This document shows, in pieces, positions 26,869 through 43,515 of a stretch of 64,000 bases of DNA; within the stretch, counting starts at the first letter, position 1; each line of letters begins with the position of its first letter. The DNA is from Nitrosophilus alvini (GTDB taxonomy: Bacteria > Campylobacterota > Campylobacteria > Campylobacterales > Nitratiruptoraceae). A program made the position numbers and the translations under genes. The notes under the pieces are model-generated. The model saw only the letters and a list, made by a program, of their open reading frames with translations. It searched no databases and was not told the DNA's origin. The DNA is taken from NCBI RefSeq assembly GCF_015100395.1, contig NZ_AP022847.1, positions 1,447,501 to 1,511,500 on the forward strand, given 5' to 3'.

Positions 26869-26946
26869 GCAGGCTCCTGTTATTAGGACTTTATAGAAAT
26901 CAATTATATCAGCCATAAACTTAAAAAATATTGTTATTGGATAATT

Positions 26947-27692: not shown

Positions 27693-27977
27693 TTATTCTG
27701 TTTTTTCTATAATATCGCCGAAAATCTGAAAAATTATGCTATCTTTAAATGCACTCCACTGAACTTTTATATTTACAAATCCGTCTGCTTTGTCTCTGTA
27801 ACTGTTTTTTACTTTAACAAGTGCGTTACTAAGTACGTTGTTAAACAGATCAGGAACCTCTTTTATATCTTTTGGAGTAAGTGTAAAAACATAACTCACA
27901 TTGTCAACCACTTTATACTCTCTTATCCCACCATCTCCGAAAGATAAAACAAAATTCTCTTTTTTCGCTTCCGCCAT
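27693..27977 (-). CDS. small accessory protein of the amyloid locus (no signal peptide)
   Basis: 94 aa, unrecognised. It is clearly paralogous to the 114-aa protein at 31191-31535: both share FGDGG, a KY/YxVVDN-like segment, YVFTL-P and the block ADGFVNIKV. The alpha/beta pattern ending in ADGFVNIKV faintly recalls YbjQ-type folds, which is a guess. Unlike its paralogue it has no signal peptide, so it probably stays in the cytoplasm; a chaperone role for the repeat proteins would fit but is unproven. First gene of the operon 94-aa/C39/barrel, with its own promoter. Confidence 0.75.
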   Translation of the reverse strand: MAEAKKENFVLSFGDGGIREYKVVDNVSYVFTLTPKDIKEVPDLFNNVLSNALVKVKNSYRDKADGFVNIKVQWSAFKDSIIFQIFGDIIEKTE

Positions 27978-28010
27978 ATTAATCCTTTAACATTTTGTTT
28001 TCATATATTA

Positions 28011-28045
28011 ATTATTACGTAGTAGATTGCAGAAAAATTGCAAAA
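28011..28045 (-). promoter_or_regulatory. operator-promoter C: tandem 11-bp boxes, -10 AATAAT
   Basis: On the plus strand the boxes read AGATTGCAGAA (28024-28034) and AAATTGCAAAA (28035-28045). On the minus strand they are followed by 7 bp and an AATAAT -10 box (28011-28016). It drives the 94-aa/C39/barrel operon. The architecture is identical to three other promoters in the window. The boxes occupy the -35 zone with one-helical-turn spacing, as with OmpR/PhoB-type activators. Confidence 0.8.
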
Positions 28046-28073
28046 ATTTGAAGCAGGAAACCCTGCTTCAAAT
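28046..28073 (-). terminator. intrinsic terminator after the 886-aa repeat protein
   Basis: Perfect 12-bp stem ATTTGAAGCAGG / CCTGCTTCAAAT with a 4-nt loop; on the minus strand it is followed by TTTTTG, which already belongs to operator box C. Five nt after the stop codon. It separates the two halves of the amyloid locus. Confidence 0.88.
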
Positions 28074-28078
28074 ATAAA

Positions 28079-30739
28079 CTATCTATTGATAGCGGTTTGA
28101 GAAGCGATCTGATTGACGGTCCAACCACTGGCACCTGTAAGATTTGCGATATTGTTTCCATAGTTGTGAGCTGCTGCAGCAGTATTGCTCAAATCTATAG
28201 CAGTTGAAGCAACCTGACTGTCATTTAGCTGAACTGAACTGTTATTGTTGTTCTGTCCATCTATATCTACATAATTTTCAATCACCTGATCACTTTCGAG
28301 ACTATTTTCAGTATAAACATCGGTGATCTGTTCGAGAACAGTGCCGAGTGGTACACTGCCTACGACGTTGGAAACGCTTATATCACTACTTACTGCCGCA
28401 CCTACGCTATTAAGCACAACTAAAGAAGAAACGTTGTTCTGAGAATCGTTCAATTGAGTTCCGCCGTTGTTATTATTTTGCGAAACTGCAAAGTCGTTGA
28501 TTACACTCTGACTGAACGTCGCCTCATTATATGCAGTCTGGATATTATCCTGCTGCAGAGTACTAAGACCAAGTGGATTGTTTATATCCGCAATATTCTG
28601 ACCTATGTTTACAGCAGACATAACACTGTTTGAAAGAGCAAACCCATCAAAATCGTTCTGTGCATTAGTCAGTTGAACTGCTCCGTTGTTGTTATTTTGC
28701 GAAACGGCCCATGAAGAACCAAGGACACCGTCGTTTGTAACTATCTGTTCGGCATAAGCATAGGCTGTAGTATCTTGTATGTTTAACTGGTCTGCGTTAT
28801 CGGTTCCCTGAGTATCACTGATAACAAGGATATTTTGTCCGATATTGACAGCACTCATAGCACTGTTGGCAAAACTTGCAACGTTTTCATTATTTTGAGT
28901 ACCAAGAATCTGTACAGCGGCATTGTTGTTCTGTTGATAACCGTTATTGTCGTTGTTTTGCGCAACATTTGAAATATCCTGATACGCATAGGTATCAGAC
29001 AAAGCACTCTGCCTGTTTAGCTGCTCGATACTGCTGACATTTGAAAAACTTTCATAGTATGCCACATTTTGTGCAATATTCTGAGCAGAACCTGCAGCAT
29101 TGCTGACACTCAAAGCGTTTATCTCATTTTGTCCGCCTGTTGCCTGAACGGAACCGTTGTCATTATACTGTCCCCATGTATCCTGCGAACCTAGAGAGTT
29201 ATTTCCTATGTACTGCTCGCTATAAACAGCAGAACTTGCATCCTGGCTGTTTTCCTGCATACCTATATTGACTCCGTCCCAGTTTTTACCTGAGGCAAAA
29301 TTCTGTGCTATATTGGATGCAGACATGACCGTATTGGCCAAAGCCATTCCTTCAAATCTGTTCTGCCCTTCCAGAATTTCAACTGATCCGTTTATATTAT
29401 CCTGAGCACTGTTTGCAACTGCGGCACCCTCATTCGATATCGCCTGCACATTCCAACCCCAGTTATCCGCACTCTGAATATTTAGTTGGTCAAAGGAGTT
29501 GCCATCGCTCACATTTTCTGCACCGGCAACGTTTTGTGCAATATTCGATGCGGAATGCGCCGTATTTGCAAGAGCAAAAGCTTTCACATCATTTTGTGCA
29601 GTTGTATAGTCATTAAGCTGAACTGCAGCATTTAGATTGTCCTGATAAAAAAGAGAGGTCGTAGATGAAGAAAGATCGTTATTGTTTATATTTTGAAAGG
29701 ACCAATTTTCCCAACCTGTTCCATTATACGCATTCTGAGTGTTGCTCTGCGTTATATCATTGAATCCGGAAGCTGCTACACTACTCCCAAAGTTTTGCGC
29801 TATATTTGAGGCTGAAGCCGCACTGTTGCTTAAAACAAGAGCCTCTACGGAGTTTTGTGCATTATCGTTAAGCTGTACGGAGTTTATGTTGTTTTTCTGA
29901 TAATCGCTACTAAAACTTCCAATATTTTGCTCTGTATAGTCTCTCGTGTAGTTTGTAGCACTCTGCTCATTTGAAGAGGCTATAGTATTAAACGAATCTG
30001 TGCCTGAAACACTTACGATATTTTGTCCGATATTCTCGGCAGAGTTCGCACTGTTTGTTACAACTGCTCCGCTTACATCAATCTGAGCGTTCTCATTTAA
30101 CTGGACTGAAGATACATTGTTATTCTGATTTGATGTATCGCTGCTGTATATGTTTTGTGTCAATACTTCAAAATCCATTTCGCCGTTAAATGCATGCTGT
30201 ATATTTTCCTGAGTGATAGTATTGACACTCTCCAGATTATCTGCACTCAATACATTCTGTCCTATATTTTCAGCTGAACCGGCAGCATTTGATATGATAA
30301 ATGCAGATGTATTTGACTGAGCATCACTGTTTATCTGGACAGAACGGTTATTATTGTTTTGATCAGTCGCATCAGCATCGTTGGATATAGATTGATTTGA
30401 ATATGTACTGTTTTCGGCGAATTGATCATTTGACTGGTACAGTGCTATATCTGAACTGTTATCAGCACTTGCACTGTTTTGGTGTACGTTTAATGCAGAT
30501 GCAGAACTGTTTACAATCTCAATAGAACTCGAAACAGATTGTGTTTCGCCGTTTAACTGGACACTGTCATTATTGTTTTGCTGGTCAGATATATCTGTAG
30601 GATTTGTTACAGTCTGCAAACCTTGCGCACTTATTTCTCCAAGATCACTATCGGAAAGTGCATTCACTTCGGCATATAGCGGAGCAGAACATGTCATTGC
30701 TGCAAGTAGCGCCGATACCATCCATTTTCTACCTTTCAT
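28079..30739 (-). CDS. large Asn/Gln-rich repeat protein, putative amyloid subunit B
   Basis: 886 aa. Sec signal peptide (MKGRKWMVSALLAAMTCSAPLYA), then NALSDSDLGEISAQG, then 11 imperfect repeats of about 70-85 residues. Each has a core such as QNNNN-x-SVQLNDNAQ, then a strand-like SNSAASAxNIxQN, then a variable linker. The end is GASGWTVNQIASQTAINR. The mature chain has no Cys. Repeated Gln/Asn ladders with alternating hydrophobics are typical of functional amyloids (FapB/FapC, CsgA). It begins after a clear GGAGG site. Paralogous throughout to the 1267-aa protein. An adhesin of another type is the main alternative. Confidence 0.72.
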   Translation of the reverse strand: MKGRKWMVSALLAAMTCSAPLYAEVNALSDSDLGEISAQGLQTVTNPTDISDQQNNNDSVQLNGETQSVSSSIEIVNSSASALNVHQNSASADNSSDIALYQSNDQFAENSTYSNQSISNDADATDQNNNNRSVQINSDAQSNTSAFIISNAAGSAENIGQNVLSADNLESVNTITQENIQHAFNGEMDFEVLTQNIYSSDTSNQNNNVSSVQLNENAQIDVSGAVVTNSANSAENIGQNIVSVSGTDSFNTIASSNEQSATNYTRDYTEQNIGSFSSDYQKNNINSVQLNDNAQNSVEALVLSNSAASASNIAQNFGSSVAASGFNDITQSNTQNAYNGTGWENWSFQNINNNDLSSSTTSLFYQDNLNAAVQLNDYTTAQNDVKAFALANTAHSASNIAQNVAGAENVSDGNSFDQLNIQSADNWGWNVQAISNEGAAVANSAQDNINGSVEILEGQNRFEGMALANTVMSASNIAQNFASGKNWDGVNIGMQENSQDASSAVYSEQYIGNNSLGSQDTWGQYNDNGSVQATGGQNEINALSVSNAAGSAQNIAQNVAYYESFSNVSSIEQLNRQSALSDTYAYQDISNVAQNNDNNGYQQNNNAAVQILGTQNNENVASFANSAMSAVNIGQNILVISDTQGTDNADQLNIQDTTAYAYAEQIVTNDGVLGSSWAVSQNNNNGAVQLTNAQNDFDGFALSNSVMSAVNIGQNIADINNPLGLSTLQQDNIQTAYNEATFSQSVINDFAVSQNNNNGGTQLNDSQNNVSSLVVLNSVGAAVSSDISVSNVVGSVPLGTVLEQITDVYTENSLESDQVIENYVDIDGQNNNNSSVQLNDSQVASTAIDLSNTAAAAHNYGNNIANLTGASGWTVNQIASQTAINR

Positions 30740-30791
30740 ATTTTCCTCCTATTCGGGGAGACATAAACCTGCCGGATCTACTTACATAAGC

Positions 30792-30813
30792 AAGAAGGAG
30801 ATTACTCCTTCTT
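30792..30813 (-). other. intercistronic hairpin before the 886-aa gene
   Basis: Stem AAGAAGGAG / CTCCTTCTT (extendable with GTAAGC/GCTTATGTAAG) just after the stop of the 125-aa gene and about 53 nt before the next start. No U-tract follows on the minus strand, so it may limit or stabilise the mRNA and set the ratio between the small and large proteins. Confidence 0.55.
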
Positions 30814-30816
30814 CGC

Positions 30817-31194
30817 TTACGGGAGATTGGTTGTGGCGTCTAGCACATTGCTTATGTTTATTCCGCCGCTTATCATTGAATCCATGACAATAACTATATT
30901 GATAGGGACATTAACTGCCGAATTCACTGCATTTACGGGAACAAAAGCGTTTTGTTGCGATGCACCACTTATCATTAGCGAATCTACCATATTAAGCGTA
31001 GATGGCAGATGTGTCGTTATATTAAATGTATTTCCGGAGTTTATTACACTATCCATCGTCTGAAAATTTATACTGAATCCCTGAGCAGAAATCTCTTCAA
31101 GCTCACTATCGCTGACCCTTTGAATATCGGCAGCCATTGAAGGTAGTGCTAATATCAAAGCAGTTAGCAATCCGGCTATTGTCCTTTTCATCAT
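30817..31194 (-). CDS. small secreted protein with amyloid N-terminal motif, putative minor subunit
   Basis: 125 aa. Signal peptide (TIAGLLTALILALPSMAA) followed by RVSDSELEEISAQGF, the same motif carried by both giant repeat proteins. The rest is strand-rich with a loose internal repeat (TMDSVINSG, MVDSLMISG, VMDSMISGG) and Asn/Ser/Val richness, but lacks the QNNN repeats. By analogy with FapB or CsgB it could be a minor or nucleating subunit; that is inference. It overlaps the 114-aa gene upstream by 4 nt (ATGA). Confidence 0.7.
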   Translation of the reverse strand: MMKRTIAGLLTALILALPSMAADIQRVSDSELEEISAQGFSINFQTMDSVINSGNTFNITTHLPSTLNMVDSLMISGASQQNAFVPVNAVNSAVNVPINIVIVMDSMISGGINISNVLDATTNLP

Positions 31195-31535
31195 TTCCTC
31201 CTTTTAGAGGTCTTAACCACATCGCCGCATACCTGATATATGATGGCATTTTTATATGGTGTTAGATGGACTTTGATGTTTACAAATCCATCGGCTTTTT
31301 TCGCATACTGCTTCTTTACATTTACCAGCGATGCAGTCAAAGCGCTGTTTAAAGTTTTGGGCGCATCTTTTAAGCTTTTGGGATTTAGCGTATAGACATA
31401 GCAACTATTGTCAACTATCTCATATTTACCCATTCCACCATCTCCGAACGAGATAGTAAAGCTCTTTTTAGATTTTGCATCTGCTGCTGAAAGAAGCAGA
31501 GCTATTGCGAAAATTGCGATGAATAACTTTTTCAT
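31191..31535 (-). CDS. small secreted paralogue of the 94-aa accessory protein
   Basis: 114 aa with a Sec signal peptide (MKKLFIAIFAIALLLSAADA). The mature part aligns with the 94-aa protein at 27693: SFGDGGMGKYEIVDN, YVYTLNPKSLKD and KADGFVNIKVHL. A single Cys in SCYVY and one in QVCGDV distinguish it. The pair, one exported and one cytoplasmic, suggests a chaperone or fibre-associated factor acting on both sides of the membrane. Function unknown. It lies 41 nt after the giant repeat gene with a hairpin in between. Confidence 0.75.
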   Translation of the reverse strand: MKKLFIAIFAIALLLSAADAKSKKSFTISFGDGGMGKYEIVDNSCYVYTLNPKSLKDAPKTLNSALTASLVNVKKQYAKKADGFVNIKVHLTPYKNAIIYQVCGDVVKTSKRRK

Positions 31536-31553
31536 TCTTTTCTCCCTTTTTAT

Positions 31554-31576
31554 GATAGAGGGGTGATCCCTCTATC
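31554..31576 (-). other. intercistronic hairpin after the 1267-aa gene
   Basis: Stem GATAGAGGG / CCCTCTATC abutting the stop codon of the giant repeat gene. On the minus strand it is followed by ATAAAAAGG, not by U residues. It is probably a partial attenuator or 3' stabiliser rather than a full stop, because the small downstream gene has no separate promoter that I can see. Confidence 0.55.
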
Positions 31577-34500
31577 TTAGTGATTGATTGCTGTTTGAGT
31601 AGCAACCTGATTGATAGTCCATCCGCTTGCACCGCTTACGCTAGCCATGTTAAGTCCATAGTTAGCAGCGCTTCCGGCAGTGTTTGCAAGAACAAGGGCA
31701 CTTGTTCCAACCTGAGCGTTGTTTAGCTGAACTGAACCGTTGTTGTTGTTTTGTCCCCCAACAACTATAGTATTGTCTATAGTTTGCAATATGTGCGCAC
31801 TGTTTTCTGCATATTGATCGTTTGTTTGATTCAATACTGTTCCGTAAGGCGCACTTCCGTTTACAGCAGCTATATTCATAGCGTTGTTGACAGCAGACAT
31901 AGTGCTGTTTAGAACAGACATAGCGCTCACATTGTTTTGAGCGTTGTTAACTTGTACAGCACCATTGTTGTTATTTTGTGCAATAGCCTCTTCGTTATAT
32001 ACATATTGATGAGCATCAGTATCACTGAGAGCAACCTGAGTATTTGTCTGATCTACCGCACTAAATCCAAGAGGATTGTCAAGATAGAGCAGATTTTGTC
32101 CAACGTTTACTGCAGACAATGCGCTGTTAGCCAAAGAGATACCTGTTACATCGTTTTGAGCACCATTTAGCTGTACTGCACCGTTGTTGTTGTTTTGTAA
32201 TGCATCAAATGCATCACCTATGCCTTCTATATTATAAACATCTTGCCAGCTTCCTGCATAAGTTTCGGCAAATTGATCATTGTTTTGATAAACAAAATCA
32301 AGTCCTGCAATATCAGCCATATATCCGGCATTCTGTCCTACGTTAACAGCACTTTCTGCACTGTTTGCAAGACTTCCAGCATTTACATTGCTTTGTGCTC
32401 CGTTGACTTGAACCGCACCGTTATTGTTTTGTTGAGCAAGTGAAAATTCAGTATCTCCACCATAGTTCCAGACTACCTGACCGCTACCATCATACACAGC
32501 AGTAGCAGACTGAATATTTTCTTGACCTATAGCGCCTATCTGAACTAGTGAACTGATATATGCGGCATTTTGAGCAACATTGACTGCGCTTGCAGAACTG
32601 TTTGCAATACTCATAGCCTGAGCACCATCCTGAGCTCCTCCATTTGCCTGAACAGCGGCATTGTTGTTGCTTTGAGCAAGTGTAACAGCATCACCCAGTG
32701 AGCCGTTTATAACAGTCTGACCTTCACCGTTGAAGACTGTTGTTGCTGTTTGATCGTTGGATTGAACAGCAATATTGACACCAATCCAGTCGCTCATATA
32801 TGCGAGATTTTGTCCTACGTTTACAGCGCTCTGTGCACTGTTGGCAAGACTCATGCCTTCAAAGTCTCTTTGTCCTTCGTTTAGCTGAACCGCACCGTTG
32901 TTATTGTTTTGAAGAGCGGTAAGAGCCAGACCAAAGAATCCAACATTTTCAACATATTGCCATGAACCTGTATCCCAAGCTTCCGCAACCTGAGTGTTGT
33001 CCTGAGCAACAATACCTATTTGTGCAAAAGAAGCATATCCACCAACATTTTGGGCAACGTTTACAGCACTTGTAGCGCTGTTGGCAAGACTCATAGCCGC
33101 TACATTGTTTTGTCCGTCATTTGCCTGAACAGAACCGCTGTTGTTGTTCTGAATGGCGGTAACTTCAAATAGCCAAGAATCGTTATAAACATCTTGCCAG
33201 CTGTCATTCCAGTAAGAAACTGCTGTCTGATCATTAGACTGTCCAACGCCTCCTATCTGTCCCAGAGCCGCGTGTCCACCAACATTTTGTCCTACGTTTA
33301 CAGCACTTGCAGCACTGTTAGCAAGACTCATTCCTACAAAATCGTTTTGACCCGCATTGACTTGAACTGCGGCATTGTTGTTTTGCTGATCGATTGTCAA
33401 GTTGAATATAAGTCCGTAATTGTCGATCAACTGACCTGACCAGGCAGAGTTTGCTGCAACTTGTGTATTGTCTTGTAAGATTGTATTAAGACCTAACAAA
33501 TCCGCACCCGCAGCTACGTTTTGTCCTACGTTAGAAGCACTAGCAGCTGTATTGGAGAGACTCATAGCAGCCACTCTGTTCTGACCGTTTTCTATCTGTA
33601 CACCTGCATTCACGTTGTCCTGACCTACAGTTACAGCTATAAGACCATTATTACCTACAAACTGATAGTTATCAACAAAGTTGTTGGCATACTGATCGTT
33701 AGACTGAGCTATAAAGTTTCCGATTTCAAGATTAGCAGCAGCCGCAGCGTTTTGTCCTACGTTTGATGCTGAAGAGGCGGTGTTTGCAACAGCCATAGCT
33801 ACAACATCATCCTGTGCGGTAGCACCGTAGTTGAGCTGTACGCTTCCATTTAGATTATCCTGAATCGCTGTAATTTGCAGAAAACTTACATTGCTTATAA
33901 CCTGATCAGAAATACCGTAGTTTGAAGCAGACTGAGTATTTGACTGTTCAATATAGTTAAACCCTATCCACTCAGCAGATAGTCCAGCATTTTGACCTAC
34001 GTTCGCCGCACTTGAAGCGGTATTTGTAAGAGCCAAAGCCTGTACACCGTTTTGGGCATTAGCATTGAGCTGAACAGAGTTAGAGTTGTTGCGCTGCAAT
34101 ATATTTGAACTGGTCTCTACATCTTGATCGATATTCCACCAAGAGTAATTAACAGCAGTCTGATCGTTGCTGGAGCTTATAACGTTTACCGCAACATCCC
34201 CAGTTATAGAGAAGAGGTTTTGTCCAACGTTTTCAGCACTGTCGGCACTATTTGAAACAACCATTCCTGCAATTCCTGCTTGAGCGTTGTCATTTAGCTG
34301 TACTGAAGCTTCGTTGTTATTTTGAAGAGCTGCGAGAGTATTGGAGACACTCTGTCTGTCTTCATTGAAGAGATCTTCTCCGTTTACCGCAACCTGAGTA
34401 TTTGTCTGAGTGATAATATTCAAGCCGTTTACATTTGAAGCTTCGATCATATTTTGAGCAACGTTTTTAGCAGAATCTGCAGTATTGCTTATAACAAGTC

Positions 34501-35380
34501 CATTGGAATTGGCCTGAGCGTTGTCGTTCAGCTGAGTAGAACCGCTGTTGTTGTTCTGAAGCTCTACATAATCTCCATTTGTTATTGTCTGATCTGTAGC
34601 TTTTTCATTTTGAGCAAACTGATCGTTTGTCTGGGTAATAATAGAGTCAGTCAGACCATCTACAAAAAGAATATTTTGTGCAACGTTTTCAGCAGATGCA
34701 GCACTGTTGCTCAAAACCATCGTAGATGAAGGTGATTGAGCATTATCATTTAACTGTACCGCTCCGTTGTTGTTCTCTTGTGCGGAAGTTTCACCCGCAT
34801 TGTCAATAGTCTGAGTATCTTCACCGCTATTTAACGCAACTTGAGTATTTGTTTGCGAAATTGCTATAGCGGAAGAGTCAGTAATAGAGGCGATATTTTG
34901 CCCTACGTTTTTTGCAGAATTGGCTGCATTAGATACAACATCTGCAGTTATCAGAGTTTGAGAGTCATCATTTAACTGTACCGCACTGTTGTTATTGTTT
35001 TGATCAGTAACTGTAGCCTGATTATCTATAGTTTGATCTGATCCATCAACATTATCTGCATATTGATCGTTAGCTTGTGCAACGCTCATAGCAGAACTTG
35101 CATCAACAGCTACAAGGTTTTGATGCGTATTCGATGCGGAGTTGACGTGATTTATCACTTCCATTCCGCTTGCACCGCTTTGACTTATACCGTTTAGCTG
35201 TACAGCGTCATTGTTATTTTGCTGATCGCTTATATCAGTCGGATTTGTTATCGTTTGAATACCCTGTGCACTCACTTCTCCCAGATCCGCGTCGCTTAAA
35301 GCGCTCACTTCTGCAAAAGCTGCCGGTGACATTACCATACCGGCTAGCAAAGCCGAAGCTAACCATTTTCTTCCAACCAT
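31577..35380 (-). CDS. giant Asn/Gln-rich repeat protein, putative major amyloid subunit A
   Basis: 1267 aa from the ATG at 35380, selected for the GGAGG site just upstream and the signal peptide MVGRKWLASALLAGMVMSPAAFA; an upstream frame adds 12 residues. Mature N-terminus: VSALSDADLGEVSAQG. Then come 16 imperfect repeats of about 70-80 aa with core QNNNNGAVQLN-x-AQ followed by SLANSAxSAVNVGQN and a linker often holding SNDQTA or TNTQVA. The C-terminus GASGWTINQVATQTAINH matches the 886-aa paralogue. No Cys in the mature chain. Pseudomonas FapC has about three repeats, so this is several times larger. Predicted role: main fibre of an extracellular matrix. Confidence 0.72.
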   Translation of the reverse strand: MVGRKWLASALLAGMVMSPAAFAEVSALSDADLGEVSAQGIQTITNPTDISDQQNNNDAVQLNGISQSGASGMEVINHVNSASNTHQNLVAVDASSAMSVAQANDQYADNVDGSDQTIDNQATVTDQNNNNSAVQLNDDSQTLITADVVSNAANSAKNVGQNIASITDSSAIAISQTNTQVALNSGEDTQTIDNAGETSAQENNNGAVQLNDNAQSPSSTMVLSNSAASAENVAQNILFVDGLTDSIITQTNDQFAQNEKATDQTITNGDYVELQNNNSGSTQLNDNAQANSNGLVISNTADSAKNVAQNMIEASNVNGLNIITQTNTQVAVNGEDLFNEDRQSVSNTLAALQNNNEASVQLNDNAQAGIAGMVVSNSADSAENVGQNLFSITGDVAVNVISSSNDQTAVNYSWWNIDQDVETSSNILQRNNSNSVQLNANAQNGVQALALTNTASSAANVGQNAGLSAEWIGFNYIEQSNTQSASNYGISDQVISNVSFLQITAIQDNLNGSVQLNYGATAQDDVVAMAVANTASSASNVGQNAAAAANLEIGNFIAQSNDQYANNFVDNYQFVGNNGLIAVTVGQDNVNAGVQIENGQNRVAAMSLSNTAASASNVGQNVAAGADLLGLNTILQDNTQVAANSAWSGQLIDNYGLIFNLTIDQQNNNAAVQVNAGQNDFVGMSLANSAASAVNVGQNVGGHAALGQIGGVGQSNDQTAVSYWNDSWQDVYNDSWLFEVTAIQNNNSGSVQANDGQNNVAAMSLANSATSAVNVAQNVGGYASFAQIGIVAQDNTQVAEAWDTGSWQYVENVGFFGLALTALQNNNNGAVQLNEGQRDFEGMSLANSAQSAVNVGQNLAYMSDWIGVNIAVQSNDQTATTVFNGEGQTVINGSLGDAVTLAQSNNNAAVQANGGAQDGAQAMSIANSSASAVNVAQNAAYISSLVQIGAIGQENIQSATAVYDGSGQVVWNYGGDTEFSLAQQNNNGAVQVNGAQSNVNAGSLANSAESAVNVGQNAGYMADIAGLDFVYQNNDQFAETYAGSWQDVYNIEGIGDAFDALQNNNNGAVQLNGAQNDVTGISLANSALSAVNVGQNLLYLDNPLGFSAVDQTNTQVALSDTDAHQYVYNEEAIAQNNNNGAVQVNNAQNNVSAMSVLNSTMSAVNNAMNIAAVNGSAPYGTVLNQTNDQYAENSAHILQTIDNTIVVGGQNNNNGSVQLNNAQVGTSALVLANTAGSAANYGLNMASVSGASGWTINQVATQTAINH

Positions 35381-35420
35381 TTTATCCTCCTTCAAAGGTT
35401 TTTTTCTTATCCACATTCAA

Positions 35421-35455
35421 ATTATCGCAAACTAAATTGCAGAAAAATTGCAGAA
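35421..35455 (-). promoter_or_regulatory. operator-promoter A: perfect tandem 11-bp boxes, -10 GATAAT
   Basis: On the plus strand AAATTGCAGAA occurs twice head to tail with no gap (35434-35444 and 35445-35455). On the minus strand the boxes precede, by exactly 7 bp, an extended -10 TGCGATAAT (hexamer 35421-35426). It drives the giant amyloid gene. It is the most perfect of the four sites. Confidence 0.85.
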
Positions 35456-35565
35456 TAAACTTTCCAAAATATTGTTTTTTACCATAAGCTTATACATTAA
35501 TATATATATTTTCAAAAATTTTTGATATAATTTTTAATGAGTCATCATTTAACTGTATCACATCG

Positions 35566-35595
35566 GTCTCAAAGCAGATTTATCTGCCTTGAGAC
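35566..35595. other. 13-bp inverted repeat between divergent promoters
   Basis: GTCTCAA-A-GCAGA / TCTGC-C-TTGAGAC around a TTTA loop (one mismatch). It lies midway between the divergent promoters A and B, 16 bp from the first box of site B. No gene ends here, so a terminator role is unlikely; a binding site for a dimeric regulator or a remnant structure is possible. Confidence 0.5.
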
Positions 35596-35611
35596 ATACT
35601 CTTTTATTATT

Positions 35612-35646
35612 CCCTGCAATCTTTCTGCAATCTTCTCGAGTAAAAT
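35612..35646 (+). promoter_or_regulatory. operator-promoter B: tandem 11-bp boxes, -10 TAAAAT
   Basis: On the plus strand CCCTGCAATCT (35612-35622) and TTCTGCAATCT (35623-35633) are the complement-oriented form of the same box, then 7 bp, then TAAAAT (35641-35646). The GTG start of the diguanylate cyclase gene is 30 bp further. Same orientation and spacing relative to the -10 as sites A, C and D. Confidence 0.8.
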
Positions 35647-35676
35647 CTAAATACACAGTTTTATTAAGGAGCGGTT

Positions 35677-36741
35677 GTGGAAAAGGCTGCCAGACTCTCA
35701 TTTTTTAAATTTCTTCAATCCGGTAAAAGGTCAAAGAGCCGGTTCTCTTCGTCCGCATTGGCTGGACTTCTCGAAAATGTGCTCTACTTCAAAAACAACC
35801 CCTCGGCAAAATCAAAAAGCAGACTTTTCCAGTCAATTTCCGCTCCAAACAGAAAAAAAGAGGACGATTTTTTTTTGAAACAGATTTTTGATCATCTTGA
35901 AGAAGCCGTTTATTATAAAAACAGAAATTTCAGATATATAAATATCAATACAGCATTTGCAGCTCTTGTAAAAAAAGAAAAAGATTCTATCATAGGCTTT
36001 AGTGATTTTGAAATTTTCAAAGAGAGTTTCGCATTAAAACTCAGAGAGATGGAAAAAAAGGTTTTTGACAAGAATAAGAGTTTAAAAAAATTTTTTTTAT
36101 TTGACGGCAAATATCTCGAAATAATACTTCACCCGCTCAAAGACAGTTTTGGAAAAACTGTCGCTATAGCAGGCATCGTAAAAGATAAAACGGAAGAAAA
36201 GGCATTCGTTAAAAAGACAAATGCCATGAAAAGATATTTCAAAAGCAGGTGCAAAAAGCTCGAACTTCTCTCTATGTGTGATTCTTTGACAAATATCTAC
36301 AATAGATATAAGTTCGATATAGCCCTTGAACAGGAAACTAAGCGTTCAAAAAGATACGGACTGCCACTCTCTCTTATACTTTTTGATATAGATGATTTTA
36401 AAAATATAAACGATGAATTCGGGCATATTGAGGGTGATAAAATTTTGAAAAAAATAGCTAAAACCGTCAAACAAAATATAAGAGATATTGACATTTTTGC
36501 AAGAATCGGCGGAGACGAATTTGCGATACTAGTTCCCAACACATCGCTTAAAGAGATAGAAAAAATAACTGACAAACTTAAAAAGTCCATAGAAAATATG
36601 AAAACTGCAAAAATAAAAACAACCTGCAGTTTCGGTATTGCAGAGTACAAAAAAGGAGAAACAAAAGAGGATTTTTTTAAAAGAACAGATGTTGCTCTTT
36701 ACAGAGCCAAAAGGATGGGAAAAAACAGAGTATCCGAATAA
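35677..36741 (+). CDS. PAS-GGDEF diguanylate cyclase
   Basis: 354 aa, GTG start after an AAGGAG site. A basic N-terminal segment (1-60) is followed by a PAS domain (about 66-180, FDHLEEAVYYKNRNFRYININTAF) and a GGDEF domain (about 195-350). The active-site motif is intact (GGDEF 278-282), and an inhibitory RxxD site is present five residues upstream (RDID, 269-272). It should make c-di-GMP, subject to product inhibition. No transmembrane segment is obvious. It is divergent from the giant amyloid gene and shares its operator type, linking c-di-GMP to fibre production. Confidence 0.92.
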   Translation: MEKAARLSFFKFLQSGKRSKSRFSSSALAGLLENVLYFKNNPSAKSKSRLFQSISAPNRKKEDDFFLKQIFDHLEEAVYYKNRNFRYININTAFAALVKKEKDSIIGFSDFEIFKESFALKLREMEKKVFDKNKSLKKFFLFDGKYLEIILHPLKDSFGKTVAIAGIVKDKTEEKAFVKKTNAMKRYFKSRCKKLELLSMCDSLTNIYNRYKFDIALEQETKRSKRYGLPLSLILFDIDDFKNINDEFGHIEGDKILKKIAKTVKQNIRDIDIFARIGGDEFAILVPNTSLKEIEKITDKLKKSIENMKTAKIKTTCSFGIAEYKKGETKEDFFKRTDVALYRAKRMGKNRVSE

Positions 36742-36753
36742 AAAGAGGCAAAA

Positions 36754-38937
36754 ATGAAATGGTTGAAAGAAGAGAATATCTCTCTTCTTAGCCTTCTTGG
36801 TACAGTATTTATTATATTTTTACTGATGATATCGATAGGGTATATTGTTATACTTAAAGAATATAGAGATTTTGAAAAAGAGTCTAAACAGATAGAAAAA
36901 AAATATATAGAAAACCAGAAACTTAAACTTAAAACAGAAGTCAACAGAGTTATAGACTATATAAACTATTACAAATCCCAAACAGAACAGAGACTCAAGA
37001 ACGATATAAGACATAGAGTATTTCAAGCCTACTGGATTGCCGAGTATATCTACAACAAATATAAAGACAAAGAGTCGGTTGAAGAGATTAAAGCAAGAAT
37101 AAAAGATGCACTCAAGCCTTTAAGATGGCGCGAGGGCTATAGCTATATGTGGATAATTGACTATAACGGCACCGCTGTTTTATATCCTGTAAATCCTAAA
37201 ATAGAAGGGACAAACGTCATTAGTTTTCATGACGCATCAGGAAGATATATATTAAAAGAGGCTATAGATCTTTCCAAACAGTATAATGAAGGTTTTATAA
37301 AAAACATATCTGTTGCCGCTGCAAATAATCCAAATAAAATATACAAACAGATAGCCTTTGTAAAAGAGTTCGAACCTTTTAACTGGGTAATAGGAACCGG
37401 TGAAACCATAGACGATGTTGAAAGCAATATAAAAAGAGAGATACTAAAAAGAATTTCTCAGATGAGATACAATAAAGAGGGCTATTTCGGTGTTGTAGAT
37501 TTTGACGGTACGGTTCTTTCACATCCTTTCCTGAAACCGGGTACAAGCATAAAAAACATAAAAGACAGCAATCAAAAACCGGTTATGCAAAGACTTGCCG
37601 AGGCTGCTTTCAATGATACTTTTCTTACTTACAAATTCAGGAAACTCACCACTCCTGAAGAGAGTGATAAGATAACATATGTAAAACCCATTAAAGAGTG
37701 GGGATGGCTTGTCTTTTCGGGTGTTTATCTTGATGAAATAAAAGATGCAATCGAAATAAAAAGAACGGCACTAAATAAAGAGCTTATAGAACGGATTAGC
37801 AATATTGTAATTGTTTTTGGAGTATTCACTCTCATAGCAATAGCACTTTCTCTGTTTTTTTCGAAACATATTGAAGACATTTTCAAAAAATATAAAAAAA
37901 GAATAGAGTTAAGAACAAAACGGCTTGAAGAACTAAACAAGATACTTAAACAGAAAGAACAGCAAGCTCTTGCGGCAAACAGAGCAAAAACACTTTTTAT
38001 ATCAAATATCTCTCATGATATAAGAACTCCTTTAAATGCGATACTTGGCTATGCACAGATTCTTTCAAAAGATAACGGATTAAGCGTTGTTCAAAAAGAG
38101 AAAATAGATAAAATTTTAAAATCCGGAAATTATCTTCTTGAAATTCTTGATGATGTGATAGAAATTTCTAAAATAGAGACGGGAAATATAAAAATAAACA
38201 AAGAGTATTTCGATTTAAAGAGTTTTCTTGAAAACATCAAGGAACTTTTTGAAGAAAGAGCTGCAGCAAAAGGACTGGGCTGGGAGGTCAAAGGCATTCC
38301 GGAAAGTGAAACCTATGTATACGGTGACAAGAAAAAACTATTTAGAATACTCATCAATCTTATCAGCAATGCTTTTAAGTTTACAGATTTTGGCAACGTT
38401 ACTTTAGAAGTTAAAAAAGTATCACACAATAGATATAGATTTATTGTAAAAGATACCGGAATCGGAATCAAAAAAAGAGATCAAGAAGATATCTATCAAA
38501 TATTTACGCAAGCCGAAGCTGGAATGGAAAGAGGCGGAAAAGGACTGGGCCTTTCAATCGCATATAAATATGTTTCTTTGCTAGGCGGAGAATTAAAACT
38601 TAAATCTGAACCGGGTAAAGGGAGTTGCTTCTATTTCGATTTGGAACTTGAATCATCTCTTTCACATAAACAAGTAAAAAAAGATATTCCGGAACAAAAA
38701 AACGAACCTAGATCCGATTATAAAGATGATTTGGCACTCCATATCCCTAATAAAATAAAAAAAGATATATTGACACACGCGAAACTCGGCCATATATCCT
38801 CATTAAAACTTGCAATATCTTCTATTGAAGAGAGTGAAATTAAAAACTTATTGATGCAATATGTGAATACGTATGATATGGACGGATTGATAAAACTCCT
38901 GCAAAATAATAGTAAAAAGGGAAAAAATGGAGTTTAA
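36754..38937 (+). CDS. Cache-domain sensor histidine kinase
   Basis: 727 aa. TM1 about 12-32; periplasmic sensor with two sCache_2-like units (REGYSYMWIIDYNGTAVLYPVNP and NKEGYFGVVDFDGTVLSHPF); TM2 about 345-370; coiled coil; HisKA with phospho-H421 in SNISHDIRTPLNAILGYAQ; HATPase with NLISNAFKFTD and GKGLGLSI. A C-terminal tail (about 665-720) resembles the tail of the hybrid kinase at 41003. No receiver domain is fused. Cache domains bind small organic ligands. It follows the cyclase by 12 nt. Confidence 0.92.
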   Translation: MKWLKEENISLLSLLGTVFIIFLLMISIGYIVILKEYRDFEKESKQIEKKYIENQKLKLKTEVNRVIDYINYYKSQTEQRLKNDIRHRVFQAYWIAEYIYNKYKDKESVEEIKARIKDALKPLRWREGYSYMWIIDYNGTAVLYPVNPKIEGTNVISFHDASGRYILKEAIDLSKQYNEGFIKNISVAAANNPNKIYKQIAFVKEFEPFNWVIGTGETIDDVESNIKREILKRISQMRYNKEGYFGVVDFDGTVLSHPFLKPGTSIKNIKDSNQKPVMQRLAEAAFNDTFLTYKFRKLTTPEESDKITYVKPIKEWGWLVFSGVYLDEIKDAIEIKRTALNKELIERISNIVIVFGVFTLIAIALSLFFSKHIEDIFKKYKKRIELRTKRLEELNKILKQKEQQALAANRAKTLFISNISHDIRTPLNAILGYAQILSKDNGLSVVQKEKIDKILKSGNYLLEILDDVIEISKIETGNIKINKEYFDLKSFLENIKELFEERAAAKGLGWEVKGIPESETYVYGDKKKLFRILINLISNAFKFTDFGNVTLEVKKVSHNRYRFIVKDTGIGIKKRDQEDIYQIFTQAEAGMERGGKGLGLSIAYKYVSLLGGELKLKSEPGKGSCFYFDLELESSLSHKQVKKDIPEQKNEPRSDYKDDLALHIPNKIKKDILTHAKLGHISSLKLAISSIEESEIKNLLMQYVNTYDMDGLIKLLQNNSKKGKNGV

Positions 38938-39340
38938 AAAACATAAAATTATCTCTACTCCAAAACTTAAATATGAAATATTGGAAGAGATATATGCTTA
39001 TAAAAGATACGGCATCCATTTTTGTCTTGCAATATTCGAATCAAAAAACGGTAATCTTTATAAAAAAATAAAAGAAAATATAAGAATAACCGATAGAGTT
39101 GTAAGACTTGACAAAAATATTACCGCTGTATTATATAAATATACAGATATAAAAGCAGGTATAAAAGCGGCAGAAAATCTTCTTTACAAACTGGAAAAAG
39201 AGACAAGATCAAAAGTTTCATGCGGTATAGTATCTTTTGAAAATAGTGAAGACAGTTTAGTTAACAGAGCCTTTTATGCACTCGAAAAGGCCAGAAAAGA
39301 CCCCTTTTCAAAAATCGAAGACGACTACTTTATAATATAA
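38927..39340 (+). CDS. degenerate GGDEF-like domain protein
   Basis: 137 aa. The layout follows a GGDEF domain (YKRYGIHFCLAIFES as the first strand region, IRITDRVVRLDKNITAVLY where the signature should be, KVSCGIVSF and a final NRAFYALEKARKD helix), but GGDEF is replaced by LDKNI, so it cannot make c-di-GMP. Possible roles are c-di-GMP/GTP binding or protein interaction; this is a fold guess. It overlaps the kinase gene by 11 nt and the convergent regulator gene by 16 nt. Confidence 0.65.
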   Translation: MEFKKHKIISTPKLKYEILEEIYAYKRYGIHFCLAIFESKNGNLYKKIKENIRITDRVVRLDKNITAVLYKYTDIKAGIKAAENLLYKLEKETRSKVSCGIVSFENSEDSLVNRAFYALEKARKDPFSKIEDDYFII

Positions 39341-39972
39341 CCTACACCCCTTACATTTTTGACAACATCTGAACCTATCTGTTTTCTAATATCTCTGAGA
39401 TGACTTGATATTGTCCTATAGTCTATCGACGTATCACCCCATACATAATCAGCAATTGTTTCAAAAGGAACAACTTTGCCTCTGTTTTTCAACAAAATAT
39501 TCATTATATCGTTCTGTTTTTTTGACAAAATTATCTCTTTACCGTTTTTATAAAGGATTTTATTGTCAAAATCATACTCCAGATTATCCGCAAATTTTAT
39601 TCTATTTTCTCTATGAAATTTAGACAATATATTTTCCATTCTAATTTCCAGTTCCGCAAGCTCAAAAGGTTTTTTTAGATAATCGCTACATCCGAGTTTA
39701 AAAGCTTTTTTGATATCATCAATTCCCACCAGAGCGCTTATGAAAATTACAGGCGTGTCCAGATGCTTACCTTTTATATACTCCAAAATATCAAAGCCGC
39801 TAAAGTTTGGAACATTTATATCCAAAATAAAAAAATCGTAATCATATAGATTTGCATTCTCCAAAAGCTCTTCGCCGTCTGCAAAGGAATCGACTTTGTG
39901 TCCTTTGAGTTCAAGATATTTGCTTATGTGTTTTCTTAAAAGATGGTCATCTTCAAGAAGCAGAATTTTCAT
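39325..39972 (-). CDS. OmpR/PhoB-family response regulator
   Basis: 215 aa: receiver domain (phospho-D51 in FFILDINVPNFSG, K101 in YLKKPF) and a C-terminal winged helix (KKQNDIMNILLKNRGKVVPFETIADYVW, then DYRTISSHLRDIRKQIG and VRGVGYII). Members bind tandem direct repeats spaced about 11 bp. It is the only DNA-binding regulator encoded in the cluster, so it is the leading candidate for the four tandem-box promoters. It overlaps the REC-kinase gene by 4 nt. Confidence 0.95.
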   Translation of the reverse strand: MKILLLEDDHLLRKHISKYLELKGHKVDSFADGEELLENANLYDYDFFILDINVPNFSGFDILEYIKGKHLDTPVIFISALVGIDDIKKAFKLGCSDYLKKPFELAELEIRMENILSKFHRENRIKFADNLEYDFDNKILYKNGKEIILSKKQNDIMNILLKNRGKVVPFETIADYVWGDTSIDYRTISSHLRDIRKQIGSDVVKNVRGVGYIIK

Positions 39973-41006
39973 TTTTCCTCTTTGAAGCAGTATGTAAATG
40001 TTGTTACATTGTCTTTCGAATCTACCTTTATATCGATATTATATTTTTTACATATCATTCTTACAATATCAAGTCCAAGCCCCAGTCCCATACTGTCTTC
40101 CTCTTCTCTATACAGCTGCAGAAATATCTTATGCTTATCCTTTATAGTTTTTCCTCTATTTTGAATATATAAGCCGATTTTGCCATTAATTTTTTTTGTC
40201 CCTATTTTTATTTTTGTATTTTCGTATCCATACTTGATCGCATTTGATATGGTATTGTCTATAACTCTTTGAAGTTCGGCAGGATTGATAAAAACTGAAG
40301 AAACAGTCGAATTAAACTCTGTTTCAAAAGACATGTTTTTTGTTTTCGCTATAACCGAAAAATATTTTATTCTAGATTTTATAAACCCTTCAAGCTCTAC
40401 GGGCTCCGGTTCAAATTTAGATATCTCTTTTTTCAAAGAGTAGTAGATATCTTCATATATCATATGAAGCGACCTGGAGGCTGCTTTAATGCTTTCAAGA
40501 TATTCGGTATCACCATATTCAAGTATCTGCATCTCTACACCCGTATCAATAATACCAAGTGGCGTATAGATCTCATGAAAAGCTTTCTTTATAAGATGGT
40601 TCATGCTTTTGATCATTTCACTTGTTGTCAGATGCGCTTTAACCCGGGCCAAAACTTCCATATGATTGAAAGGTTTACTTATATAATCGACTCCGCCTGT
40701 TTCAAAGGCTTTTACCTTATCTTCGGGACTATTAAGAGCAGAGAGAAAGATAACAGGTATATCTTTAAGTTCTCTGTCTTTTTTCAGTTTTTTGCAAGTT
40801 TCATATCCGTTGATACCTGGCATCATAATATCGAGTAAAATAATATCAGGCTTGATAATAGAAGCTATTTCAAGGGCTTTCTCCCCTGTTGTCGCAATAA
40901 AAAGTTCATATCCTGCCGGCTCCAAAGTCTCTTGTAAAAGTGCAAGATTCTCCGGTGTATCGTCGACAAGAAGAATTTTAGGGCGAAGAATTTCGCTTTG
41001 GGTCAT
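39969..41006 (-). CDS. receiver-histidine kinase fusion
   Basis: 345 aa, soluble. N-terminal receiver domain with D59 (IILLDIMMPGINGY) and KPF, then an unusual dimerisation helix with H144 in AFHEIYTPLGII, then HATPase (DNTISNAIKYGYE, GLGLGLDIVRMI). It sits between the hybrid kinase and the regulator with 4-nt overlaps on each side, so the three proteins likely form one phosphorelay: hybrid kinase to REC-kinase to OmpR-type regulator. The direction of transfer is inferred. Confidence 0.92.
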   Translation of the reverse strand: MTQSEILRPKILLVDDTPENLALLQETLEPAGYELFIATTGEKALEIASIIKPDIILLDIMMPGINGYETCKKLKKDRELKDIPVIFLSALNSPEDKVKAFETGGVDYISKPFNHMEVLARVKAHLTTSEMIKSMNHLIKKAFHEIYTPLGIIDTGVEMQILEYGDTEYLESIKAASRSLHMIYEDIYYSLKKEISKFEPEPVELEGFIKSRIKYFSVIAKTKNMSFETEFNSTVSSVFINPAELQRVIDNTISNAIKYGYENTKIKIGTKKINGKIGLYIQNRGKTIKDKHKIFLQLYREEEDSMGLGLGLDIVRMICKKYNIDIKVDSKDNVTTFTYCFKEEK

Positions 41007-43216
41007 TGACTATCCTTTTTTTCCAACTCTTTAATAATCGCATCAAAATTGAAGTTTTTTAAATAGAAATTCAGCTTCTCTTTTGCGGCCTCATTTTGTA
41101 AGCTTTGGGTTATTTTCTTAAGCTCGGTAATTTGTCCCAGTTTTGCAAGAACAATCATCTGTTTTTTTACACTTTCATCCAATTTTGAAAGATCAGCTTT
41201 CATTTTTGGTTTTTCCGACTCTTTTGGAGTTCTTGCTTTTTCAAATCTCTCTGAAAAAAACTTTATCAATATCTCGTTTACACTTTTTATACTAAAAGGT
41301 TTTATTAAAATCTCGTCAAAAATATCTTCTGTATCTTTTCTGTTTTCAGTAATTTGCGAAGCGGTAATTGCAACAATTTTTACATTATTATCTATCTTTT
41401 TTATTCTTTTTGCAGCTTCTATTCCATCAATTTTCGGCATTCTTACATCCATAAATACTATATCTGGTGAATTTTTTATAAATTTGCTTACAGCCTCTTC
41501 TCCATCCTTGGCAGATATAATACTCACGCCTTCGGGTTCAAGAAAACTTTTCATAACTTTTACGTTTTCTTCAGTATCATCTGCAATCAAAGCTGTAATA
41601 CTACTCCCTTTTTTAACCGATATAGAAGAGTGATGCATAGTCTCTTTTACAACTTTTTTCTTCGTAACTGTCCCACATGGAATCTCAAAATAAAATCTTG
41701 TTCCACGTCCCGGTTTAGATTCCAGTTTGAGTTCTCCTCCTAAAATTTCTATATTGTTCTTTGCTATAGCCAGCCCCAGTCCTGTCCCTCCTCTTTGATA
41801 TCCTTCACTGTGCTGGACAAACGGTTCGAAAATTTTTGCCTGAAGCTCTTTTTCTATACCTATTCCTGTATCTTTTACCTCAAAATAGCATTTACCATTT
41901 TTTCTGATCTTAAATATCAGCTGAACGCTTCCTTTTTCTGTAAACTTGATTGCGTTTCCAACAAGATTCAGCAAAATGTGAAAGAGTTTGCTTTTATCAC
42001 TATGGATAAAAAGATCTTCTTTCGGCATCCCTTTGATACTCCATCGTATATTCTTAGCCGCGGCTCTTACAAGAAATATCTGGTATATACTTTTGAACAT
42101 ATTTGTAAGATTAAACTCGGAGATATTGGGTCTGTTTTTCCCCACTTCTATTCGTGTTATTTCAAGAATATCATTGATAAGATCCAGAAGATGTCCGCTT
42201 GCCACTATTATAGAGCCTATCATCTCTTTCTGTTTTTCGTTAAGCTCCCTATCCTGTGAGAGAATCTGAGCATACCCCAAAATTGCATTAAGAAGAGTTC
42301 TGATCTCATGCGATATATTTGATAAAAATATACTTTTTGCACGGTTGGCCTGTTCGGCCTCTTTTTTTGCCTTTATCGCCTCCAGACGCATTCTTTGCGC
42401 CATTCTTGTCTGCTCAAGAAGTTTCTTCTGATAAAGTTCCCTGTCTGTTACATCTATATCAAAACCCATTAGATGGGGATCAACATCTTTATCAAGACAG
42501 ACGGCCTGTTCGTCAACATAACGTATCTCGCCATTCGGTCTTCTAATCCTGTATGTTATTTTGTAGTCAGAAAAATTTTTGACTGCACGATCAAATATAT
42601 TTTTTACAAACTCTTTATCATTAGGATGTATCAAGCCGGAATCAATAATACTTCTAGGTTTATCTTTTGTTTTATCCAGACCCAGAATATTATACATCTC
42701 ATCACTCCAGTAGTATCTGTTGTCTTTGAAATGTATCTCCCAAACACCGATATGGGCCATCTTCTGAACAAAATCAAAATGTCTTTTTATACTCTCAATA
42801 AAACCTTCGAATTCATTTATACATTCATTTTTGAAAGACTCTTTTATAAGTTCTTTTATATTCTCTTTTTCGTTCTTTATTATCAAAAAAGCGACTCTGT
42901 TATCTCCTGAACCACAAACAGCACCTTCAAACACAACATCAATTTTGGTAGAATTTGCAAGCCTGAGCGATGAATGAAACTCGTAAGTTCCTTTTGTAGA
43001 AAAAATATTTTTTATATGTTCTTTTATTCTATTTTGCTCTTTTTCGCTGAAAAAGGATGTAAAATCTTTTCCAATAACCTCTTCCGGATCATATCCTATA
43101 AGATTTTTTGCCTGATCGTTAAATGCAATTACTTTTCCATTCTTATCGATAGCAAAAACATGCGCGGTAGAATCTTTTAGAAGATTTAAAATCTGTGTTA
43201 TTGATGAAATACTCAT
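41003..43216 (-). CDS. hybrid sensor histidine kinase (PAS-PAS-HK-REC)
   Basis: 737 aa, no transmembrane segment. PAS1 (about 8-125), PAS2 with a PAC-like end (about 150-260, MAHIGVWEIHFKDNRYYWSDEMYNILG), HisKA with H303 in SHEIRTLLNAILGYAQ, HATPase (NLVGNAIKFTE, GGTGLGLAI), receiver with D590 (IVFMDVRMPKIDG) and a helical tail. The H-box has Leu where Pro is usual (RTPLN to RTLLN), which could alter kinase/phosphatase balance. The PAS domains suggest intracellular sensing, possibly of redox state. Confidence 0.93.
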   Translation of the reverse strand: MSISSITQILNLLKDSTAHVFAIDKNGKVIAFNDQAKNLIGYDPEEVIGKDFTSFFSEKEQNRIKEHIKNIFSTKGTYEFHSSLRLANSTKIDVVFEGAVCGSGDNRVAFLIIKNEKENIKELIKESFKNECINEFEGFIESIKRHFDFVQKMAHIGVWEIHFKDNRYYWSDEMYNILGLDKTKDKPRSIIDSGLIHPNDKEFVKNIFDRAVKNFSDYKITYRIRRPNGEIRYVDEQAVCLDKDVDPHLMGFDIDVTDRELYQKKLLEQTRMAQRMRLEAIKAKKEAEQANRAKSIFLSNISHEIRTLLNAILGYAQILSQDRELNEKQKEMIGSIIVASGHLLDLINDILEITRIEVGKNRPNISEFNLTNMFKSIYQIFLVRAAAKNIRWSIKGMPKEDLFIHSDKSKLFHILLNLVGNAIKFTEKGSVQLIFKIRKNGKCYFEVKDTGIGIEKELQAKIFEPFVQHSEGYQRGGTGLGLAIAKNNIEILGGELKLESKPGRGTRFYFEIPCGTVTKKKVVKETMHHSSISVKKGSSITALIADDTEENVKVMKSFLEPEGVSIISAKDGEEAVSKFIKNSPDIVFMDVRMPKIDGIEAAKRIKKIDNNVKIVAITASQITENRKDTEDIFDEILIKPFSIKSVNEILIKFFSERFEKARTPKESEKPKMKADLSKLDESVKKQMIVLAKLGQITELKKITQSLQNEAAKEKLNFYLKNFNFDAIIKELEKKDSQ

Positions 43217-43270
43217 ATTTTAAAAATCTGCCTTCATCTCTTTTGTATTAGAGTATCATTAAACATATTC

Positions 43271-43279
43271 ATTATATCA
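43271..43279 (-). promoter_or_regulatory. possible extended -10 promoter for the hybrid kinase gene
   Basis: The minus strand reads TGATATAAT about 55 nt upstream of the kinase start, an extended -10 without a clear -35. It may provide basal expression in addition to promoter D further upstream. Confidence 0.4.
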
Positions 43280-43304
43280 AAATCAAAATTAAAGTATAAT
43301 TTTG

Positions 43305-43415
43305 CTAAAAATGAGACAAAAAAGAGGATAAAAATTTTAGAATACCCAAAATTCCGCTAAGCGCAATACCGGTAAAAACCGCCATTACACTTATAAGAAA
43401 AATCTCTTCTTTCAT
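43305..43415 (-). CDS. 36-aa putative small membrane protein
   Basis: Short frame of 36 codons starting MKEEIFLISVMAVF and ending LKFLSSFLSHF. The middle is a single hydrophobic helix of about 22 residues (IFLISVMAVFTGIALSGILGI). The ATG at 43415 has an AAAGGA site at a good distance; another ATG two codons upstream is too close to it. It is the first ORF after operator-promoter D and precedes the kinase/regulator operon on the same strand. Not recognised; it could be a signalling peptide acting on a kinase, or part of the matrix system. Short length leaves doubt. Confidence 0.55.
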   Translation of the reverse strand: MKEEIFLISVMAVFTGIALSGILGILKFLSSFLSHF

Positions 43416-43429
43416 TATCATTTCCTTTC

Positions 43430-43447
43430 GGCGGCCCAAAGGCCGCC
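43430..43447 (-). other. GC-rich hairpin in the leader of the 36-aa ORF
   Basis: Perfect stem GGCGGCC - CAAA - GGCCGCC in an otherwise A/T-rich leader, ending a few bases before the ribosome-binding site of the 36-aa ORF. It is not followed by U residues, so a leader stabiliser or translational control element is more likely than a terminator. Confidence 0.55.
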
Positions 43448-43480
43448 TTTGGGCTACGAATAAACTACAACTCACTTTAA

Positions 43481-43515
43481 ATTATAAAAAAGAAGATTGC
43501 AAAAAAATTGCAGAA
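43481..43515 (-). promoter_or_regulatory. operator-promoter D: tandem 11-bp boxes, -10 TATAAT
   Basis: On the plus strand AGATTGCAAAA (43494-43504) and AAATTGCAGAA (43505-43515). On the minus strand they lie 7 bp upstream of a perfect TATAAT (43481-43486). It is directed away from upp toward the 36-aa ORF and the kinase/regulator operon, which suggests positive autoregulation if the encoded regulator binds here. Confidence 0.8.

Follow-up and report, generated by a model that had tools for sequence, protein, structure and literature searches.

A tandem 11-bp box at a fixed distance from the -10 element: a probable operator-promoter of a biofilm-matrix regulon in Nitrosophilus alvini

In a stretch of 64,000 nucleotides from Nitrosophilus alvini (contig NZ_AP022847.1, positions 1,447,501 to 1,511,500; referred to below as the window), four promoters, lying among genes for amyloid-like proteins and for cyclic di-GMP (c-di-GMP) signalling, carry the same pair of adjacent 11-bp boxes at one distance from the -10 hexamer. 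The locus raises the question of whether this arrangement is an operator and, if so, which protein reads it and for which genes. We found that the element recurs, with base-exact spacing, around orthologues of an OmpR/PhoB-type response regulator encoded in the same cluster, here called RR215, and comparison of the sequences makes it likely that the element serves a dedicated biofilm-matrix regulon as its operator and promoter, bound and activated by RR215.

Each of the four sites consists of two head-to-tail 11-bp units TTYTGCAATYT (in the sense of transcription), a spacer and a -10 hexamer. The spacer between box and -10 is 7 bp at 4/4 sites and every site is oriented toward a gene start, sites 1, 2 and 4 being on the minus strand and site 3 on the plus strand; the leaders predicted downstream are about 24-60 nt long. 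The sites and their targets are listed here, together with equivalents in other genomes (G, genome; L, locus).

Site 1, 28045->28011 (-): TTTTGCAATTT TTCTGCAATCT ACTACGT AATAAT; boxes 28045-28024, spacer 28023-28017, -10 AATAAT 28016-28011, predicted +1 near 28004; precedes the operon of the 94-residue accessory protein, C39 peptidase and barrel; equivalents before C39 in G017 (L093 10606) and G019 (L095 1469).
Site 2, 35455->35421 (-): TTCTGCAATTT TTCTGCAATTT AGTTTGC GATAAT; boxes 35455-35434, spacer 35433-35427, -10 GATAAT 35426-35421, predicted +1 near 35414; precedes the operon of the giant amyloid-like gene; equivalents in G006 (L092 6881), G017 (L093 15356, 13105), G019 (L096 6509) and G057 (L126 6716).
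Site 3, 35612-35646 (+): CCCTGCAATCT TTCTGCAATCT TCTCGAG TAAAAT; boxes 35612-35633, spacer 35634-35640, -10 TAAAAT 35641-35646, predicted +1 near 35653; precedes the GGDEF/dCache-kinase operon; equivalents in G017 (L093 15444) and G019 (L096 6581, with extra boxes upstream).
Site 4, 43515->43481 (-): TTCTGCAATTT TTTTGCAATCT TCTTTTT TATAAT; boxes 43515-43494, spacer 43493-43487, -10 TATAAT 43486-43481, predicted +1 near 43474; precedes a 36-residue open reading frame and then the HK737/REC-HK345/RR215 operon; equivalents in G006 (L092 459), G171 (L174 8856) and G044 (L177 11873).

An earlier note on this DNA had described the four sites as tandem 11-bp boxes of common orientation, 7 bp from the -10 hexamer, and that description stands as it was given, far beyond what chance would produce. 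In the window, three 22-mers were found at three or fewer mismatches, compared with 0.01 expected. Over the whole genome (1.81 Mb, a single contig), the 20-mer YTGCAATYTTTYTGCAATYT matches perfectly at four places, exactly these sites, all within the 15.5-kb cluster, and scatter over unrelated promoters was not seen; there were no matches at one mismatch, two at two and 28 at three, and a reversed control gave five matches in total at up to three mismatches. The pair TTGCA-N6-TTGCA alone is common and not significant (110 found in comparison with 99 +/- 10 expected at two or fewer mismatches); specificity lies in the extended box and its spacing, not in the short TTGCA pair. Two further candidates were rejected, since the two-mismatch match at 172907 lacks a -10 at 7 bp and a match in the window at 21759 (-) falls within a coding gene. 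A loose pattern, with the -10 at three mismatches, gave background matches everywhere and was replaced by a tighter one. Among the matches listed, no ordinary -35/-10 promoter was recognised at any of the four sites, and the best match to a -35 consensus at 16-18 bp from the -10 was 2/6 over all sites. A sigma-54 promoter (-24/-12) was also considered and rejected: the reverse reading resembles TGGCA-N6-TTGCA, but the GG is missing and the direction is away from the genes.

A minimal form of the element, TGCA-N7-TGCA-N11-(-10), is shared by distant members of the order. With the -10 matching at 4/6 or better, 32 matches were found in 404 kb around RR215 orthologues and none in 230 kb of loci from the same order that lack RR215 and served as controls; some loci had been fetched because of their matches, and this enrichment over controls is therefore biased, whereas the comparison of spacings is little affected. 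With the -10 at 5/6 or better, 26 matches were found at the observed distance, compared with at most four at any other distance from 4 to 20, and 26 at the 11-bp period, compared with at most one at any other. Twenty sites outside the window were chosen at one core mismatch or fewer, blind to the -10, which was defined as 4/6 or better with the A and T required. Of these, 17 have a -10 at precisely 7 bp, where the background rate is 3.6% per position (P = 2.6e-22); the other three include two upstream units of a four-box array in G019.

Taking the last T of the -10 as position -7, the half-sites lie at -38 to -35 and at -27 to -24. The sigma-70 promoters of Campylobacterota have no clear -35 and conserved T's at -7, -17, -27 and -38 (PMC3847290, PMC3656092). 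In our sites T occupies these positions in 31, 25, 31 and 31 of 31 cases, respectively; those at -7, -27 and -38 were fixed by the search, whereas the T at -17, within the spacer, was not imposed by it. In addition, +1 is a purine in 26/31 sites. The operator appears to be superimposed on the normal periodic promoter of the lineage, which would explain the invariant spacing.

The proposed binder is encoded within the cluster.

39325..39972 (-): RR215, OmpR/PhoB-type response regulator of 215 residues, proposed binder of the boxes (Pfam Response_reg 5.5e-25, Trans_reg_C 1.5e-14).

RR215 comprises a receiver domain and a Trans_reg_C winged helix, both whole. Its structure model (mean predicted local distance difference test score 89) has as its nearest solved folds PrrA, VanR, DrrD, KdpE and PhoP, all OmpR/PhoB regulators, with an uncertain arrangement of the domains (whole-chain template-modelling score about 0.5). 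The phospho-acceptor and catalytic residues D8, D51 and K101 are invariant in 13 proteins, 39-74% identical to RR215, and so are T187, H191, R193, D194 and K197 of the recognition helix, which spans residues 185-199 in the model; more distant OmpR-type regulators of the order have different residues in this helix, for example TIRAEISRLKK. Site and protein are associated in the genomes described below, and RR215 is very probably the protein that binds the tandem boxes.

Among 22 genomes of the family to which the window belongs, four have both the C39 gene and an RR215 orthologue at 70% identity or more. The 32-nt pattern TGCAATNTTNYTGCA-N11-TANRAT, at 0-1 mismatch, is present in those four and in 0/18 of the others (Fisher P = 1.4e-4). 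All four carry the element before the amyloid operon, and in N. alvini, G017 and G019 it also precedes the C39-barrel operon and the cyclase-kinase operon. In G017 (L093 11400-15360) a tandem duplication covers the amyloid gene together with its small partner and the box-bearing promoter; in G019 (L096 6556-6612) four 11-bp units form an array before the cyclase operon, of which only the last pair has a -10 at 7 bp. An unlinked site in G019 (L097 9826) precedes an operon encoding PelD (Pfam 1.8e-15) and PelF-type (DUF3492) proteins; the same Pel-type operon in the N. alvini genome (L193, C1:408000-425000) has no tandem box, so regulon membership changes.

More distant relatives extend the association beyond the family; several of the genomes compared in this work are fragmented metagenome-assembled genomes. 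In three other families, RR215 orthologues at 60-61% identity adjoin the REC-kinase gene and not this amyloid cluster, and in G397, G162, G171 and G043 the element lies nearby despite the absence of such a cluster. The genome-wide matches fall within about 30 kb of RR215 in 5/6 cases for G162 and 5/11 for G397. In these two genomes the element lies upstream of STAS, WecG/sugar-transferase, glycosyltransferase and other exopolysaccharide genes, and about nine promoters of one exopolysaccharide cluster carry it in G162. G057, from another family, has an amyloid cluster and a regulator 39% identical to RR215 with the same recognition helix TISSHIRDI; it was considered as a case of amyloid genes without the motif, which is ruled out by TGCACATTTTTTGCACTTA-N7-GATAAT (a TGCA-N7-TGCA-N11-GATAAT element) before its amyloid gene. 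The element stands directly upstream of the REC-kinase/RR215 operon in G171 and G044 and upstream of HK737 in G006; with N. alvini itself, it thus precedes the kinase/regulator operon in four genomes, which supports the autoregulation suggested in the earlier note. That note had also proposed a dedicated regulon for c-di-GMP signalling and fibre production. The regulon is borne out by the elements around RR215 orthologues in other families; the theme was too narrow, and the targets suggest that it is better described as a biofilm matrix of changing chemistry (amyloid, Pel or other exopolysaccharide), plus one diguanylate cyclase.

The mechanism that we propose is as follows. RR215 would be phosphorylated by the kinases encoded alongside it, in response to whatever signal these sense, and would then occupy, as a head-to-tail dimer, the two TGCA half-sites that follow each other at 11 bp between -38 and -24. 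So placed, it would be a neighbour of sigma-70 RNA polymerase on promoters with a -10 and no -35, and would activate transcription of four units, namely the operons for export (accessory/C39/barrel), for the amyloid-like subunit, for the cyclase and its kinase, and for RR215 itself with its kinases. Activation of the last would constitute positive feedback, and induction of the cyclase would be expected to raise c-di-GMP.

Several observations weigh against this proposal. Some of the loci in which the minimal element was counted had also served to derive it. No box was found before the kinase operon in G017 and G019, no site in 10.4 kb of G025, whose regulator is 49% identical to RR215, and none in the 6.5-kb contig of G445, which ends inside the operon; G450, the only informative fresh locus, has two weaker sites. 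Nor is a missing -35 proof of dependence on an activator, since the sigma-70 promoters of Campylobacterota usually do without it (PMC3656092).

The same promoters could also be read as targets of repression, RR215 binding the boxes and blocking polymerase at -38 to -20, or changing sign with phosphorylation. A blocking protein would indeed sit where the boxes are, and the promoters, whose -10 elements are good and which carry the usual periodic T's, might fire unaided. We regard this as unlikely, because the layout, head-to-tail tandem sites that reach over the -35 zone and keep a single distance to the -10 in more than 25 cases, is that of OmpR/PhoB activators, and a repressor does not need base-exact spacing. 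The identity of the binder might likewise be mistaken, as N. alvini has at least four other RR215-like regulators (the one listed is about 43% identical), one of which could bind the boxes while the link to RR215 was a coincidence of clustering. Against this, the elements gather near RR215 orthologues in several families whose targets differ, and genomes of the same family that have other OmpR regulators and no RR215 contain no 0-1-mismatch elements; we therefore consider a different binder very improbable. The repeats could, at the extreme, be no operator at all and merely the generic periodic A/T signal of Campylobacterota sigma-70 promoters, since T at -7, -17, -27 and -38 is the known pattern (PMC3847290) and the sites fit it. 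Such a signal would be expected at very many promoters, yet the TGCA element occurs four times in the N. alvini genome, only near RR215, and has no match in the control loci; the G and C at box positions are, moreover, foreign to an A/T signal, and we find this explanation scarcely credible.

Activation by RR215, the reading that we prefer, has parallels among known systems. The half-site of the Pho box is TGTCA, whereas the half-site here is TGCAA. PhoB of Escherichia coli is, like RR215, a winged-helix response regulator with direct repeats over the -35 region, although for RR215 the binding is predicted from sequence. PhoB sites overlap the -35 of a sigma-70 promoter, head-to-tail on direct repeats (PMC3348028), and the sites described here share this layout, with tandem units, an 11-bp period, a fixed 7-bp gap, overlap of the -35 zone and no -35 consensus. 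The 11-bp period also resembles that of PhoP of M. tuberculosis, made up of a 7-bp motif and a 4-bp spacer (PMC4832192). In contrast to PhoB, the gap to the -10 is fixed at 7 bp, the targets concern biofilm matrix and the promoters are of the periodic-T Campylobacterota type.

The likeness to the Fap system of Pseudomonas consists of a FapF-like barrel, a C39 peptidase resembling FapD/FilB and repeat-rich secreted subunits; the differences are scores under the curated cut-offs, subunits without a match and several operons rather than one fapABCDEF. As of 2013, reports of Fap were confined to Beta-, Gamma- and Deltaproteobacteria (PMC3792158). The fapA gene of P. fluorescens is under the control of BrfA, a c-di-GMP-sensing enhancer-binding protein (PMC13101488), whereas control here apparently falls to a two-component system. 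Curli offers a further parallel, as the OmpR-family two-component system EnvZ/OmpR governs an amyloid there through csgD (PMC8072697); in that case, however, OmpR is one of several inputs on csgD, whereas the regulator here appears to be local, with a handful of sites, and to act directly at the amyloid promoter.

More tentatively, we suggest that one regulator-operator pair may have been kept across several Campylobacterota families while its output was swapped between amyloid and Pel or other exopolysaccharide, and that the T's of the half-sites may at the same time be those that the promoter needs at -27 and -38, an overlap that would account for spacing exact to the base. We found no description of the motif in the literature, of which coverage was partial, so that this is a weak negative. 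The locus would offer a regulon, defined by sequence, for the production of biofilm matrix in a group of bacteria about whose control of this process little is known, with the likely regulator named and the start sites predicted to the base. It would also provide a natural series in which a transcription factor keeps its DNA site and the material under its control is exchanged, and an example of how activators are accommodated on promoters without a -35.

The genes of the fibre system are listed here.

25813..26916 (-): outer-membrane barrel, FapF-like (NCBIfam FapF 5.9e-50, under the curated cut-off).
26947..27669 (-): C39 peptidase, FilB/FapD-like (NCBIfam FilB 1e-52, FapD 1.2e-35, both under curated cut-offs).
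27693..27977 (-): 94-residue accessory protein, the first gene after site 1.
28079..30739 (-): second amyloid-like repeat protein, 886 residues.
30817..31194 (-): 125-residue secreted protein with an N-terminal motif common with the amyloid-like proteins.
31191..31535 (-): small secreted accessory protein, a paralogue of the 94-residue protein (both cross-match the same loci).
31577..35380 (-): giant repeat protein, amyloid-like subunit with a signal peptide; ATG at 35380, preceded by AAGGAGG.

Both large repeat proteins carry signal peptides. The barrel scores 170 bits against a FapF cut-off of 700 and is thus homologous to, and outside, the curated FapF/FilC family, and the C39 peptidase scores 179 bits against 475 for FilB and 123 against 330 for FapD. 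No FapB/FapC-like subunit was matched in Pfam, NCBIfam or the PDB, repeat-rich secreted proteins occupying the expected place, and the giant repeat protein in particular has no family match in Pfam or NCBIfam. Because of these scores and of the subunits without a family match, the fibre system, as judged from its sequences, is Fap/Fil-like rather than a proven member.

The signalling genes, other than RR215, are as follows.

35677..36741 (+): PAS-GGDEF diguanylate cyclase (GGDEF 2e-42; GGDEF and RxxD motifs intact in the translation).
36754..38937 (+): dCache histidine kinase, 727 residues (Pfam).
38927..39340 (+): 137-residue protein between the two kinase operons; its translation resembles a degenerate GGDEF domain without the motif, and no Pfam match was found.
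39969..41006 (-): REC-histidine-kinase protein (REC-HK345), 345 residues, adjoining RR215 in most orthologous loci.
41003..43216 (-): hybrid histidine kinase HK737, PAS-PAS-HisKA-HATPase-REC, 737 residues (Pfam).
43305..43415 (-): 36-residue open reading frame downstream of site 4.

The sister loci contain no convincing relative of the 36-residue reading frame, which therefore may not be a real gene. The two large histidine kinases (36754-38937 and 41003-43216) share a C-terminal extension of about 60 residues, AKLGxIxxLKxxI..., which is unnamed in Pfam. In G006 (L092 1-420), the kinase/regulator operon directly follows an apparent transfer-messenger RNA gene. The leader of site 4 contains, at 43418-43460 (-), between the predicted start and the Shine-Dalgarno sequence of the 36-residue reading frame, a strong GC hairpin, GGCGGCC-TTTG-GGCCGCC (70-nt fold -22.7 kcal/mol, z = -3.4).

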